32,854 nucleotides of DNA from the NCBI GenBank assembly GCA_946486465.1, contig CAMLTY010000012.1, positions 1 through 32,854 on the forward strand, given 5' to 3'. The position numbers were made by a program, and so were the translations under genes. The notes beneath the pieces were generated by a model, which was given only the letters and a program-made list of their open reading frames with translations, searched no databases and had not been told where the DNA came from. Positions within the stretch are counted from its first letter, which is position 1, and each line of letters starts with the position of its first letter. The DNA is from an uncultured Mycoplasmatota bacterium (GTDB lineage Bacteria > Bacillota_I > Bacilli_A > RF39 > UBA660). This document shows positions 18,058 through 31,418 of this stretch, one piece after another.

Positions 18058-18100
18058 TAGGAAATTTACTAGGAAATTACTAGGAAATTACTAGGAAATG
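18058..18100 (+). repeat. Four phased TAGGAAAT repeats upstream of the AlbA regulator
   Basis: TAGGAAAT occurs at 18058, 18070, 18081 and 18092, the last three in perfect 11-bp ACTAGGAAATT units. The spacing is about one helical turn. A candidate -10 TATTAT lies at 18104-18109, so the repeats occupy the -35 region. The rest of 17957-18057 shows no gene. Confidence 0.85.
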
Positions 18101-18137
18101 TGATATTATTAATTTGACTGTAATTGGAGGTGTAAAA

Positions 18138-19478
18138 ATGATAGAAGCTATTGAAGATTCACGAACAGAATTTAAAATTAAATTAGTAGATGACTTAGAA
18201 GAAACGGTTATAGCCTTTTTGAATAAAGATGGAGGTAGCATCTATATTGGAGTTGATGATAATGGTAATGTAGTTGGATTAAAAAATAATATGGATTTAT
18301 TTCAACGAAAAATAAAAGATAAAATAATTTCTAGTATCGAACCATCTGTTTTAGGATTATTTGATTTAGAAGTATTTACAAAAGAAGGCAAAAAATACTT
18401 AAAGATAACAATAGCGAAAGGATATGAAACTCCATATCATATAAAAGGTATGGGAATGACTCCAGATAGTTGTTTTATTAGAGTTGGTAGTTCTAATGAA
18501 AAAATGGATGAACATCTAATAAATAAGATGTTTAGAGAAAGAACAAAAAATTCTTTAAAAAATATTATTTCACCAAGACAAGATTTAACTTTTACTGATT
18601 TAAAAATATATTATGCAGAAAAAGGTTTTGATGTAGGTGATAATTTTGAAAGACAATTGGGCTTTTTTACAAGAGACGGAAAATATAATTATGTTGCTTA
18701 TCTTCTAGCTGATAATAATAGAGTCTCAATTAAAGTTGCCAAATATGTTGGTGAAGATGTTGATGAAATAGAAGAATATTATGAATTTGGTGATTGTTCT
18801 TTAGTCAAAGCAACTTATAGAGTACTAGAAAAGTTTAGAACAGAGAATAAAATTTATGCTAAAATAACGTATCCAGAAAGAATTGAACAACCTATGTATG
18901 ATTATAATGCTGTTAGAGAGGTTATTATCAATGCTATTGTTCATAATGATTGGTCTAATGAATATCCACCAAAATTTGAATTTTTTAGTGATAGATTAGA
19001 AATATCCTCATTTGGTGGGATACAAAGTGAATTTACTGAAGAAGAATTTTTAGAAGGATATTCTGCACCTAAAAATCCAGAACTTATGCGAGTTTTTCAC
19101 GACTTGGAACTTGTTGAGCATTTAGGAACTGGTATAAGAAGAATATTAAAAAAATACGATAAAAGCATCTATCATTTCTTCCCACATTTTATAAGAGTAA
19201 GTATCAAATATAATCAAAATGAATTTGACTATGAGAATTCTAACAAAAGAATAGAAAAAATTTCTTATTCTGATATTGTTCTAACAAAAGTTCAAGAAGG
19301 AATTATTGGTTTAATAGAAGATAGACCTAGTATTACTCAAGAGGAAATGTCTAATTTGCTAGGTGTAACATCAAGAACAATTAGAAATCATATAAAATTT
19401 TTGGTTGAAAACAATTATATAAAAAGAGTTGGGGCTGATAAAAATGGCAAATGGATTATTATTTATAAAAATAATTGA
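18138..19478 (+). CDS. Schlafen/AlbA-domain ATP-binding transcriptional regulator
   Basis: The 446-residue protein has three parts. An N-terminal Schlafen/AlbA_2 domain contains ETVIAFLNKDGGSIYIGVDDNG and FIRVGSS. A middle HATPase_c_4 region contains VREVIINAIVHNDW and HLGTGIRR. The C-terminal winged helix contains ITQEEMSNLLGVTSRTIRNH. Such proteins are often annotated as RecG-like helicases, but they lack helicase motifs and are DNA-binding regulators. ATG 18138 follows GGAGGTG; a TTG at 18114 is not a plausible start. The repeat array in its promoter suggests it controls its own gene. It ends in TGA directly before a terminator. Confidence 0.9.
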   Translation: MIEAIEDSRTEFKIKLVDDLEETVIAFLNKDGGSIYIGVDDNGNVVGLKNNMDLFQRKIKDKIISSIEPSVLGLFDLEVFTKEGKKYLKITIAKGYETPYHIKGMGMTPDSCFIRVGSSNEKMDEHLINKMFRERTKNSLKNIISPRQDLTFTDLKIYYAEKGFDVGDNFERQLGFFTRDGKYNYVAYLLADNNRVSIKVAKYVGEDVDEIEEYYEFGDCSLVKATYRVLEKFRTENKIYAKITYPERIEQPMYDYNAVREVIINAIVHNDWSNEYPPKFEFFSDRLEISSFGGIQSEFTEEEFLEGYSAPKNPELMRVFHDLELVEHLGTGIRRILKKYDKSIYHFFPHFIRVSIKYNQNEFDYENSNKRIEKISYSDIVLTKVQEGIIGLIEDRPSITQEEMSNLLGVTSRTIRNHIKFLVENNYIKRVGADKNGKWIIIYKNN

Positions 19479-29138: not shown

Positions 29139-29172
29139 AAACAACTCTCACTTTCTTTTATTATTCTATCAT

Positions 29173-29198
29173 AAAAAGAAGCCTATTTCCTAGACTTC
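29173..29198 (-). terminator. Terminator of the ATPase gene, duplicate of the pflA terminator
   Basis: GAAGCCTA (29178-29185) pairs with TAGACTTC (29191-29198) with one wobble, and T residues follow on minus. It is almost identical to the pflA terminator at 30686-30711. Confidence 0.9.
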
Positions 29199-29208
29199 GC
29201 ATACTTTT

Positions 29209-30561
29209 TTACAATAATATTGTCATATAAACTGGTAAATATACAATATTATCTTCTTCTTTATAATCTCCTGTATGAATTATATATGGCGTGGCTAGAT
29301 AATTTGCATATTTTTTTCTAAATTTATTTAAGGAAACTAAAGTATAATTTTTACCTGATTTAACTTCAATTGGGGAAATATTATGCTTATTAGTAATTTT
29401 TGATTTTGAAATTAAGAAATCAATTTCCATTCTATCATAACTATTTTCTCTAGAACTATTGGAATAAAAATATAGTTTGTGTCCATTAGAAACTAGCATT
29501 TGAGCGACTATATTTTCTAGTATCATTCCACCATTATATTCTAATTTATCAAATAATATCTTTTTATAAATTTCTTCTTCTACAATACTCTTTTCATCAA
29601 AAGCTTTTGAAATTAAAAGTCCAGTATCTGCCATATAGCATTTATAAAAACTATTATCTAAATTTAGAGAAAGTCCTATACTTGGTTCTGTAGTATTAAA
29701 TGCTTGATTAACAATCATAGCATCATCTAACCACATAAAAGCATCCTCATAATCTCTTGTTTTAGCATCCTTATCTAAAGATGTAATCCTAAACTTCTTT
29801 TCATGCTTTTGAAGTTGTGATGGTATTTCATCAAATATACTTCTTACTTTTAAACTATACTTGCCAGAATGTTTAATTATATCTTCGCGATATAAATCTA
29901 AAATATTTCTTTTTATCTGATCTACTTTATTAAAATCTTTAGTATTAACATACTCTAAAACTGCTTGTGGCATTCCACCAACTATCATATATTGTCTAAA
30001 ATAATCCATTGCCTTTCTATGAAAAATATTACCAAGAGGCTGTTTTTCCTTAAAACTTTTTTCTATTAATTCCATTAATCCATGATTATCTAAAGCCCAT
30101 AAAAATTCTTCAAAGTCCATGGGATACATTTTTAAATGTTGTTCTTCTGAAGGAATTAAAATATCTTTAACATTTTCATTTATTGAAACTAGAGATCCTG
30201 TTTCAATATAATCATATCTACCATCAGCGACTAAGTATTTAATTGCAGACCTTGCTCTTGGATATAGTTGTACTTCATCAAAAATAATTAAACTTTCTCT
30301 TTCATATAATTTTACATTATAGTAATTAGATAAATATAAAAATAAATTATCTAAGTCGTCTAAGTATAAATCAAATAAATTTTTAATTTCAAGTGGTGCT
30401 CTATTAAAGTCTATCATAATATAACTTTTATAATTGTTTTTAGCAAACTCTTCTACTATATAACTTTTTCCAACACGTCTTGCTCCATCTATAAGAAGAG
30501 CTGTTTTTCCATTAGAATCCTCTTTCCATTTAACTAACTTATCATAAATTTTTCTTTGCAT
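29209..30561 (-). CDS. AAA_14/DUF4143 ATPase
   Basis: The 450-residue protein has an AAA_14 ATPase domain with Walker A GARRVGKS (26-33), Walker B LIIFDEVQ (91-98) and sensor-like TGSLVS. A C-terminal DUF4143 domain ends in a PD-(D/E)XK-like core (EIDFLISKS, then PIEVKSGK). These proteins are frequent, mobile-looking and often multicopy in gut bacteria, and their role is unknown. The nuclease-like Asp, Glu and Lys are all present. GGAGG precedes ATG 30561. The promoter carries three 33-bp repeats, and the gene sits between two copies of the pflA 3' end. Confidence 0.9.
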   Translation of the reverse strand: MQRKIYDKLVKWKEDSNGKTALLIDGARRVGKSYIVEEFAKNNYKSYIMIDFNRAPLEIKNLFDLYLDDLDNLFLYLSNYYNVKLYERESLIIFDEVQLYPRARSAIKYLVADGRYDYIETGSLVSINENVKDILIPSEEQHLKMYPMDFEEFLWALDNHGLMELIEKSFKEKQPLGNIFHRKAMDYFRQYMIVGGMPQAVLEYVNTKDFNKVDQIKRNILDLYREDIIKHSGKYSLKVRSIFDEIPSQLQKHEKKFRITSLDKDAKTRDYEDAFMWLDDAMIVNQAFNTTEPSIGLSLNLDNSFYKCYMADTGLLISKAFDEKSIVEEEIYKKILFDKLEYNGGMILENIVAQMLVSNGHKLYFYSNSSRENSYDRMEIDFLISKSKITNKHNISPIEVKSGKNYTLVSLNKFRKKYANYLATPYIIHTGDYKEEDNIVYLPVYMTILL

Positions 30562-30581
30562 AAAGTTACCTCCATAATTAC

Positions 30582-30587
30582 ATTATA
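30582..30587 (-). promoter_or_regulatory. -10 element of the ATPase gene
   Basis: TATAAT on minus, directly after the innermost repeat copy (CTTGATTTCGTG-TATAAT). TTGAAA lies about 16 bases upstream as a possible -35. Confidence 0.65.
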
Positions 30588-30671
30588 CACGAAATCAAGA
30601 TTTTTTCAACCTTGTTTTTACACCAAATCAAGTTTTTTTAAACACCATTTTTACACGAAATCAAGATTTTT
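30586..30671 (-). repeat. Three 33-bp spaced direct repeats in the ATPase promoter
   Basis: Units starting at 30586, 30619 and 30652 read TACACGAAATCAAGATTTTT, TACACCAAATCAAGTTTTTT and TACACGAAATCAAGATTTTT. The conserved part is about 20 bases and the 12-13 bases between units differ. The period is exactly 33. Confidence 0.9.
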
Positions 30672-30685
30672 AGCCTATTTTAAGT

Positions 30686-30711
30686 AAAAAGAAGCCTATT
30701 TTTTAGACTTC
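30686..30711 (-). terminator. Terminator of pflA
   Basis: GAAGCCTA (30691-30698) pairs with TAGACTTC (30704-30711) with one wobble, and T residues follow on minus. The last codons of pflA form part of the stem. Confidence 0.9.
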
Positions 30712-31418
30712 TCATACTTCTTCATAAACTTTTTATATAGTTCATCACATTTATTAACATCCATCTCAGGTGTATCTTTTAATGGATTAGGAATATTAAA
30801 TTTTTGATACTTTTCAAAACCTAAGTGATGGAATGGTAGAAATTCTATTTTTTCAATATTTTTTATTTTCTTTAAATATTCTACTAGACCATCTAAATAT
30901 TCATCATTATCCATAATACCTGGAACAATTACTTGTCTAATCCAAACTGGTTTACCACTTTTATTTAACTCTTCGATAAACTTCTCTGACTCTTCTATAT
31001 CTCTTCCTGTTAAGTCTTTATAACCTTCTTTAGTAACGTGTTTAATATCTAAAATAACAAGATCTATTAACTCTAATATTTCTTTATATTTACCAATACC
31101 AACACCGGCAGTATCTAAGGCAATATGGATACCTTCTTTTTTTAGTTTCTCACAGATATCTAATAAGAAATTAATTTGTAAAAGAGGTTCTCCTCCAGAG
31201 AAAGTTACACCACCATTATTTCTTTTAAAGTATGGTTTGTTACGAAGAATTTTTTTAACTAGTTCATCTGTATCATAGTTTACTTCATTCATAGCCCATG
31301 TTTCTGGGTTATGACAGTATTTACATCTTAGAGTACAACCATCTAAAAATACTACGGTTCTAATTCCTGGTCCATCTACAAGACCAAATGTTTCAAGTGA
31401 ATCTACGCTTGCTTTCAT
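30696..31418 (-). CDS. pflA: Pyruvate formate-lyase activating enzyme (radical SAM)
   Basis: The 240-residue protein carries the radical SAM cluster motif CTLRCKYC (Cys 28, 32, 35), GGVTFSGGEPLL for SAM binding, and the family C-terminal LPFHHLGFEKY. It uses SAM and a [4Fe-4S] cluster to place the glycyl radical on PflB. Its ATG directly follows the pflB stop (TAAATG), so the two are co-translated. Its last eight codons (KKYEKSKK) and terminator recur in altered form after the DUF4143 ATPase gene. Confidence 0.96.
   Translation of the reverse strand: MKASVDSLETFGLVDGPGIRTVVFLDGCTLRCKYCHNPETWAMNEVNYDTDELVKKILRNKPYFKRNNGGVTFSGGEPLLQINFLLDICEKLKKEGIHIALDTAGVGIGKYKEILELIDLVILDIKHVTKEGYKDLTGRDIEESEKFIEELNKSGKPVWIRQVIVPGIMDNDEYLDGLVEYLKKIKNIEKIEFLPFHHLGFEKYQKFNIPNPLKDTPEMDVNKCDELYKKFMKKYEKSKK

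Follow-up and report, generated by a model that had tools for sequence, protein, structure and literature searches.

In the window (the whole stretch of 32,854 nucleotides analysed here), the gene of an AAA_14-DUF4143 ATPase is preceded by an array of three direct repeats; arrays spaced at 33 or 34 bp lie upstream of most of its homologs across phyla, and the bases of the repeat core covary with residues of the encoded protein. Array and gene together form a stand-alone unit at this site. From the covariation we consider it probable that the ATPase reads the array, and, with less assurance, we favour an interpretation in which the array is the operator of the ATPase itself, which would bind there and repress its own promoter. 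We infer physical binding, cooperativity, repression and its trigger from these patterns.

The existence of the array is certain. Tandem Repeats Finder reports a direct-repeat array at 30586-30671 with a period of 33, 2.6 copies, 83% matches and no indels, and its score of 123 is the highest of the 32 tandem-repeat rows in the window (runner-up 75); a separate repeat search resolves three copies with start-to-start spacings of 33 and 33, in agreement with a sequence-only reading of this DNA, which had described three repeats with an exact 33-bp period. The same reading equated this period with exactly three helical turns, which is inaccurate, as 33 bp corresponds to 3.14 turns at 10.5 bp per turn (3.14-3.24 turns for 33-34 bp). 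It also placed the last copy over the TATAAT box, and copy 3 does overlap the -10 element of a sigma-70-like promoter, the other two copies falling farther upstream, before the -35 element. On the gene (minus) strand the cores read CTTGATTT[C/G]GTGTA. The features of the locus, all on the minus strand, are as follows.

29172-29209, minus strand: second arm of a 38-bp duplication, at the ATPase stop codon (flank comparison).
29209-30561, minus strand: AAA_14-DUF4143 ATPase gene, 450 aa (P0001), PADLOC PDC-S01 (ORF, Pfam and PADLOC profiles).
29210-30684, minus strand: inserted unit, made up of the array and the ATPase gene only and missing from the empty site L128 (site comparison).
29212-29628, minus strand: putative PD-(D/E)XK domain, codons 312-450 (conserved residues and domain model).
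29431-29466, minus strand: loop with residues 369 and 371, codons 366-377 (covariation with core positions 9 and 7).
30569-30573, minus strand: GGAGG ribosome-binding site (read from sequence).
30582-30609, minus strand: sigma-70-like promoter, TTGAAA-16-TATAAT, 11/12 (consensus match).
30586-30599, minus strand: core of repeat copy 3, CTTGATTTCGTGTA, between -35 and -10 and overlapping -10 (repeat search and promoter scan).
30619-30632, minus strand: core of repeat copy 2, CTTGATTTGGTGTA (repeat search).
30652-30665, minus strand: core of repeat copy 1, CTTGATTTCGTGTA, most distant from the ATPase gene (repeat search).
30685-30722, minus strand: 3' end of a pflA-like gene with its terminator, upstream arm of the 38-bp direct duplication (terminator scan and flank comparison).

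The promoter is a consensus match only, because one was found against 1.5 expected in shuffles. The 15/16 repeat match upstream of the window ATPase (locus L012) was reached by none of 100 dinucleotide shuffles, and the core, with at most one mismatch, occurs in its own genome (86.85% complete, 1.4 Mb, 109 contigs) at these three sites only, the reversed control pattern giving one chance match; the possibility that the core is scattered over many unrelated places is thus answered in the negative. An explanation of the array at the level of RNA was rejected: the sequence shows no fold beyond shuffles (z -0.45), and the single Rfam match over 30400-30900 scores 16 bits against a gathering score of 150. 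Because RNA structure is lacking and two of the three copies precede the -35 element, DNA is favoured over RNA. Elsewhere in the window, at 18058-18099, an 11-bp tandem repeat (TAGGAAATTAC, 3.7 copies) lies directly 5' of an ORF at 18114-19478 on the plus strand.

To place the array in a wider context, a scan of genome contigs confirmed 114 relatives of the ATPase, of which the best 80 were used; L052, whose match begins at residue 73 and whose upstream DNA is missing, was dropped, leaving 79 loci. At each locus the upstream repeat was compared with 100 dinucleotide shuffles, and a locus passed if at most 2 of them matched it. This period test was passed upstream of 70 of the 79 homologs, with the best lag at 33 in 57, at 34 in 11, and at 20 and 27 in one each; among the nine that failed, the best lag was 33 or 34 in eight and 22 in L118. 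As a control, the downstream DNA of the homologs passed in 6 of 76 cases. A fresh set from other genomes (93 loci, 86 once 7 identical to the first set had been dropped) gave 71 passes among the 84 loci with enough upstream DNA, with the lag at 33 in 44 and at 34 in 20. Repeats are therefore present upstream of nearly all homologs tested, whereas their absence before orthologous ATPases would have spoken against a link with the gene. The record labels of the best 80 of the 114 relatives span Bacilli, Clostridia, Lachnospiraceae, Bacteroidales, Desulfovibrio, Treponema, Spirochaetales, Oxalobacter and a Methanomethylophilaceae archaeon, and single labels may be wrong because nearly all of these are metagenome-assembled genomes.

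Two or more copies were detected in 78 arrays, the window included; L062 was excluded by hand, and L118, which has one copy, was also left out. Of the 78, 19 have two copies, 45 three, 13 four and one five. Their 152 spacings, for which a range of 32-35 was allowed, are 33 (128), 34 (22) and 32 (2). Copy number thus varies, as the sequence-only reading had suggested checking, from one copy before the gene start in G031 (L140) to the maximum of five in L099, although the single copy in G031 may be an assembly error because its gene spans two contigs. The core sequence differs by lineage, and 74-75 of the 78 arrays have G-T-G as their majority bases at register positions 14-16, with a register matrix that itself favours G-T-G. 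Across the 78 arrays, between 0 and 120 bp separate the last copy from the start codon, so this copy does not always fall on the same promoter element. A more distant group (L114-L117, L120, L125, L126 and a 'KHRND' group), at about 50-54% identity, has another core, such as GATTGCGCTTTTTT, with the same 33/34-bp period.

To relate the arrays to the proteins, we left out the 11 of the 78 registered arrays that scored 12 or less, and in the remaining 67 (window included) the distances between cores correlate with those between proteins (Spearman 0.63). A scan for changes on the same branches placed residue 371 top in aggregate, with no single pair decisive among 2820. For T at core position 7 and Arg371, 9 changes are concordant (12 and 12 in total, phi 0.79); Arg371 stands ahead of 596 other residue states for T7, and the next column is 369. 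Counting arrays with both Arg and T, Arg without T, another residue with T, and neither, the discovery set gives 43/2/4/18. The association was predicted before the fresh set was analysed, and the 27 fresh loci that passed the register threshold give 10/0/6/11 (Fisher p 0.001, relatedness ignored). A third set of 42 loci, reduced to 37 by dropping 2 identical to earlier ones and 3 duplicates, left 26 after registration and gives 6/3/1/16 (Fisher p 0.002, relatedness ignored and many loci being close relatives). Both later sets come from among the matches listed, with strict E-value limits on all searches but one. Exceptions to the association are L302 and L300. On the combined tree the signal is weaker, with 6 concordant changes of 20 and 18 (p 0.03), and over the 120 arrays the association remains (59/5/11/45). 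The state at core position 7 is split 50:50 in 3 of the 67 first-set arrays, 2 of the 27 fresh ones and 5 of the 26 in the third set, and its call is arbitrary there because a tie rule assigns it.

Tyr369 and G at core position 9 form a second pair, for which the counts, in the same order, are 10/3/0/54 in the first set, 5/0/0/22 among the fresh loci and 1/0/0/25 in the third set (Fisher p 0.04, relatedness ignored). This pair is blind in the third set only, because it was spotted by eye after the fresh rows had been viewed, and that blind set holds a single Tyr. Over the 120 arrays on one tree the counts are 16/3/0/101, and the pair ranks first of 25,848, with 7 concordant changes of 9 and 9 (p 5e-7, binomial on branch lengths). 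In the structure model, residues 369 and 371 lie in the loop preceding the strand with E379 and D381. Correlations in sliding windows reach 0.38 at 16-35 and 0.34 at 71-90, both in the AAA+ region, and 0.32 around 356-375; since the AAA+ region, too, shows raised partial correlations, reading may not rest with the loop alone, and some pairs outside the loop score as well (core 8A with 91L and 282R). The winged-helix segment was rejected as the reader of specificity, its window correlations being negative at 271-320, despite which residue 282 scores weakly with core position 8. The earlier reading had allowed either the ATPase or an unlinked factor as the binder; the covariation of core and protein, with the best pair in the PD-(D/E)XK loop, favours the ATPase.

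The protein itself scores 85.1 bits for PF13173 (cut-off 27) and 77 bits for PF13635 (cut-off 28.1) and matches seven PDC-S01 models of PADLOC (PDLC04786, E 1.4e-116, residues 1-448), and we take it to be a member of COG1373; NCBIfam profiles gave no match, and a sequence search against solved structures returned nothing useful. By these profiles it is a suspected anti-virus protein, a defence candidate of a very common, uncharacterised family. The full model (pLDDT 87, pTM 0.88) comprises an AAA+ core, a helical segment, a probable winged-helix segment around 233-310, as read from the secondary structure of the model, and a C-terminal alpha/beta domain. In the operator interpretation, this AAA+ ATPase with its PD-(D/E)XK domain would read each core, at least partly through the loop 366-377, and, with usually 2-5 copies at 33-34 bp, several subunits may sit next to one another. 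Lying over the promoter or start region, the copy nearest the gene would hold it down until the protein is drawn away, for instance to phage or other foreign DNA; the resulting derepression would make this a self-contained, self-regulated, horizontally moving one-gene unit. The cooperative regulator site over the promoter that the sequence-only reading proposed fits these data in its position, and binding and cooperativity are its conjectural part. For the operator speak the nearest copy, set in a promoter-like site, and the neighbourhood, in which no family (ORFs of 70 aa or more) is common to more than 7 of the 79 loci. Against it, autorepression leaves the conservation of the PD-(D/E)XK catalytic residues unneeded, arrays stand without the gene in three genomes, and an AraC-type regulator lies near some loci.

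The first two of these difficulties count in favour of another reading, which we regard as unlikely: that the array is a nuclease target whose repeats the PD-(D/E)XK domain would cut once triggered, for self-targeting, gene conversion or insertion, with the overlap with the promoter being secondary. In the E-x-D...E-x-K motif, K401 is invariant and E379, D381 and E399 are kept in 90% or more of 53 sequences, with few deviating rows (e.g. L076, L070), and the covarying loop comes directly before the catalytic strand. Modelled alone, the domain 312-450 (pLDDT 80, best Foldseek E 0.015) aligns most closely with nucleases: McrBC (Z 8.5, 3.1 A over 104), Can2 (8.4, 3.0 A over 98), VRR_NUC (8.0, 3.0 A over 89) and FokI (6.9, 3.2 A over 100). 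With Z of about 6-8.5, we assign it with moderate confidence to the PD-(D/E)XK nuclease-superfamily fold, as a putative nuclease. In addition, one array has contracted to one copy, others are left without a gene, and the window unit was inserted with a 38-bp duplication. The empty site L128 matches both window flanks, the insert sitting between 38-bp copies of the 3' end of pflA, a name given to this neighbour because it has Radical_SAM and Fer4_12 domains and adjoins a PFL-like gene; at empty sites in the genus the pflA terminator is followed directly by other genes. The gene-less arrays stand beside pflA, with two copies in G006 (L133) and G032 (L144) and one in G022 (L145), and a close ATPase ortholog was not found in these three genomes. 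However, arrays are kept upstream of the gene, no methylase is present among the eight window neighbours scanned, and flanking duplications above the null (maximum 14) occur, besides the window, in only 5 of 72 loci, L047, L049 and L050 at pflA and L059 and L066 elsewhere.

On the same count, transposon-type mobility was rejected as a general feature. Carriage as phage or plasmid cargo was provisionally rejected because such homologs are few in absolute number: 59 of 72,556 plasmid records and 12 of 50,697 phage records, the latter unannotated faecal contigs throughout, contain one, and IMG/VR yields 21 loci. In a viral fold library, P0001 matches generic ATPases and clamp loaders for the most part. 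Within the genus the pflA end is variable, with differing genes after its terminator from genome to genome (L128-L145), and in the window this terminator is duplicated after the ATPase gene. The terminator-like site of the neighbouring gene, at 30713-30689, lies beyond the array copies.

The presence of an AraC-type regulator gene within 2.5 kb of 6 of the 79 loci bears on a further reading, to which we give slightly less credence than to a nuclease target: that the reader of the repeats is an unlinked host DNA-binding protein, the ATPase being only the product under its control. An operator array over a promoter can in general be read by an unlinked factor, and the earlier remark that no regulator gene is adjacent holds in the window. 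Also among the leading neighbours are the pflA/pflB genes in near relatives, an ABC transporter at 6 loci and further AAA_14/DUF4143 genes, whose two clusters cover 6 and 3 of the 79 loci; these were identified from one to three members scanned per cluster. Against such a factor, the core is found nowhere else in its own genome and its bases covary with ATPase residues; moreover, because the 33/34-bp layout spans Bacilli, Clostridia, Bacteroidales, Desulfovibrio, Treponema and an archaeon, the host factor would have to exist in all of them.

Somewhat less probable again is that the array serves as an assembly or sequestration platform, holding a STAND-like ATPase inactive or priming its oligomer, in the manner of iterons or DnaA/Orc boxes, with control of transcription as a side effect. 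Several copies at constant spacing would suit such a role, and the best alignments of the AAA+ part are to two AAA+ ATPases of archaea, 2qen at Z 16.2 (4.9 A over 266) and 2fna at Z 15.3 (4.6 A over 268), with CED-4 and plant NLRs following at Z 13-14.6 (4.6-5.5 A) and Orc/Cdc6 also similar. A likeness in fold, however, shows no function, and an operator is the simpler match for the overlap with the promoter and for a copy number that varies from 1 to 5. That these are functionless repeats, arisen by chance or ordinary to an A+T-rich promoter, is exceedingly improbable given the shuffle tests, with downstream DNA as the control, and the conservation across phyla, even if the region is A+T-rich and two-copy families can arise by chance.

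If the array is the operator of the ATPase, it has relatives among known systems. The genes of toxin-antitoxin systems and of restriction-control (C) proteins have autoregulated operators, and here too the protein would bind repeats in its own promoter; the putative binder, in contrast, is an ATPase-nuclease-like protein with no partner gene, and its reader would include the PD-(D/E)XK domain. Iterons of plasmid Rep initiators (spaced by about 21-22 bp) and DnaA/Orc boxes likewise consist of several direct repeats at near-helical spacing for one binding protein, whereas the present array precedes a gene, lies in the window on a promoter-like site, has a period of 33/34 and belongs to no replicon known here. 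Avs3, a STAND ATPase-nuclease, is the top Foldseek match of the P0001 model (8dgc, E 7e-6, TM 0.33) and shares the logic of an AAA+ part plus a nuclease, but P0001, 450 aa long, has the PD-(D/E)XK domain as its C terminus, up to residue 450, and the large C-terminal sensor region is missing.

PDC-S01, the PADLOC phage-defence candidate, has the same architecture, an ATPase fused to PD-(D/E)XK (PMC12988326). The passages available to us place it among the most common systems (PMC12988326, PMC13356809) and rank it fourth by frequency among the defences of all prokaryotes (PMC12988326), with validation of most PDC candidates pending (PMC12988326); repeats or regulation are not mentioned in their descriptions of it. 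COG1373, whose AAA_14-DUF4143 ATPases share both Pfam domains with P0001, is listed as 'Predicted ATPase, AAA+ superfamily' among horizontally shared gut genes in a passage of PMC10782964, and the COG1373 passages searched do not mention repeats. According to an excerpt of PMC4406477, TT_P0211 (AAA 14, DUF4143) is 6.6-fold up in Thermus thermophilus HB27 with a plasmid relative to HB27, and the strain without Argonaute has no significant change above 4-fold. Upstream arrays of DUF4143, COG1373 or PDC-S01 genes are not described in the literature passages searched, which lie outside most subscription papers and all preprints. PDC-S01 has no mechanism in these passages, and the covarying, conserved array gives it a likely DNA ligand; because there is now a likely ligand, named residues and an assayable promoter, the function of this very large family is directly testable.

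The own genome has 13 DUF4143 genes, the window gene included, and the expectation that the same core might recur upstream of the others was not borne out, as the repeat-bearing paralogs have repeats that differ in sequence from the window array (single upstream regions read). The shuffle test is passed by L004 and L006 (period 23), L009 (lag 46, 2 x 23 by eye) and L005 (33), the 23-bp-period repeats of the first three being of unrelated sequence; L007 (lag 32) narrowly fails (4 of 100), and no direct repeat beyond shuffles is found upstream of L008, L010, L011, L013, L014, L015 and L016. Different repeats at the repeat-bearing paralogs are what insulation would need. We offer, as a tentative and rather unlikely extension, that the PD-(D/E)XK domain of each lineage reads a private, fixed-spacing array through a short loop code, the array being the sensor or suicide target of a one-gene immune switch of which a genome could run a dozen insulated copies. 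It is a speculation that the constant 33-34 bp (3.14-3.24 turns) and the 23 bp of the paralogs (2.19 turns) reflect a fixed small twist per subunit.

In a scan without shuffle control, inverted repeats of 14-16 nt lie upstream of L010, L013 and L015 (100, 100 and 94% complementary), and L014, L016 and L008 have inverted repeats too; subfamilies of DUF4143 that include L010, L013, L015, L040 and L044 show upstream inverted repeats of 14-18 nt, e.g. AACTCCAAAAAAAT / ATTTTTTTGGAGTT, again without that control. A second AAA_14/DUF4143 gene occurs within about 4 kb in L063, L097, L104, L059 and their cluster mates, and G432, the genome of L095, has 24 matches to the ATPase family in one 3.9-Mb genome.
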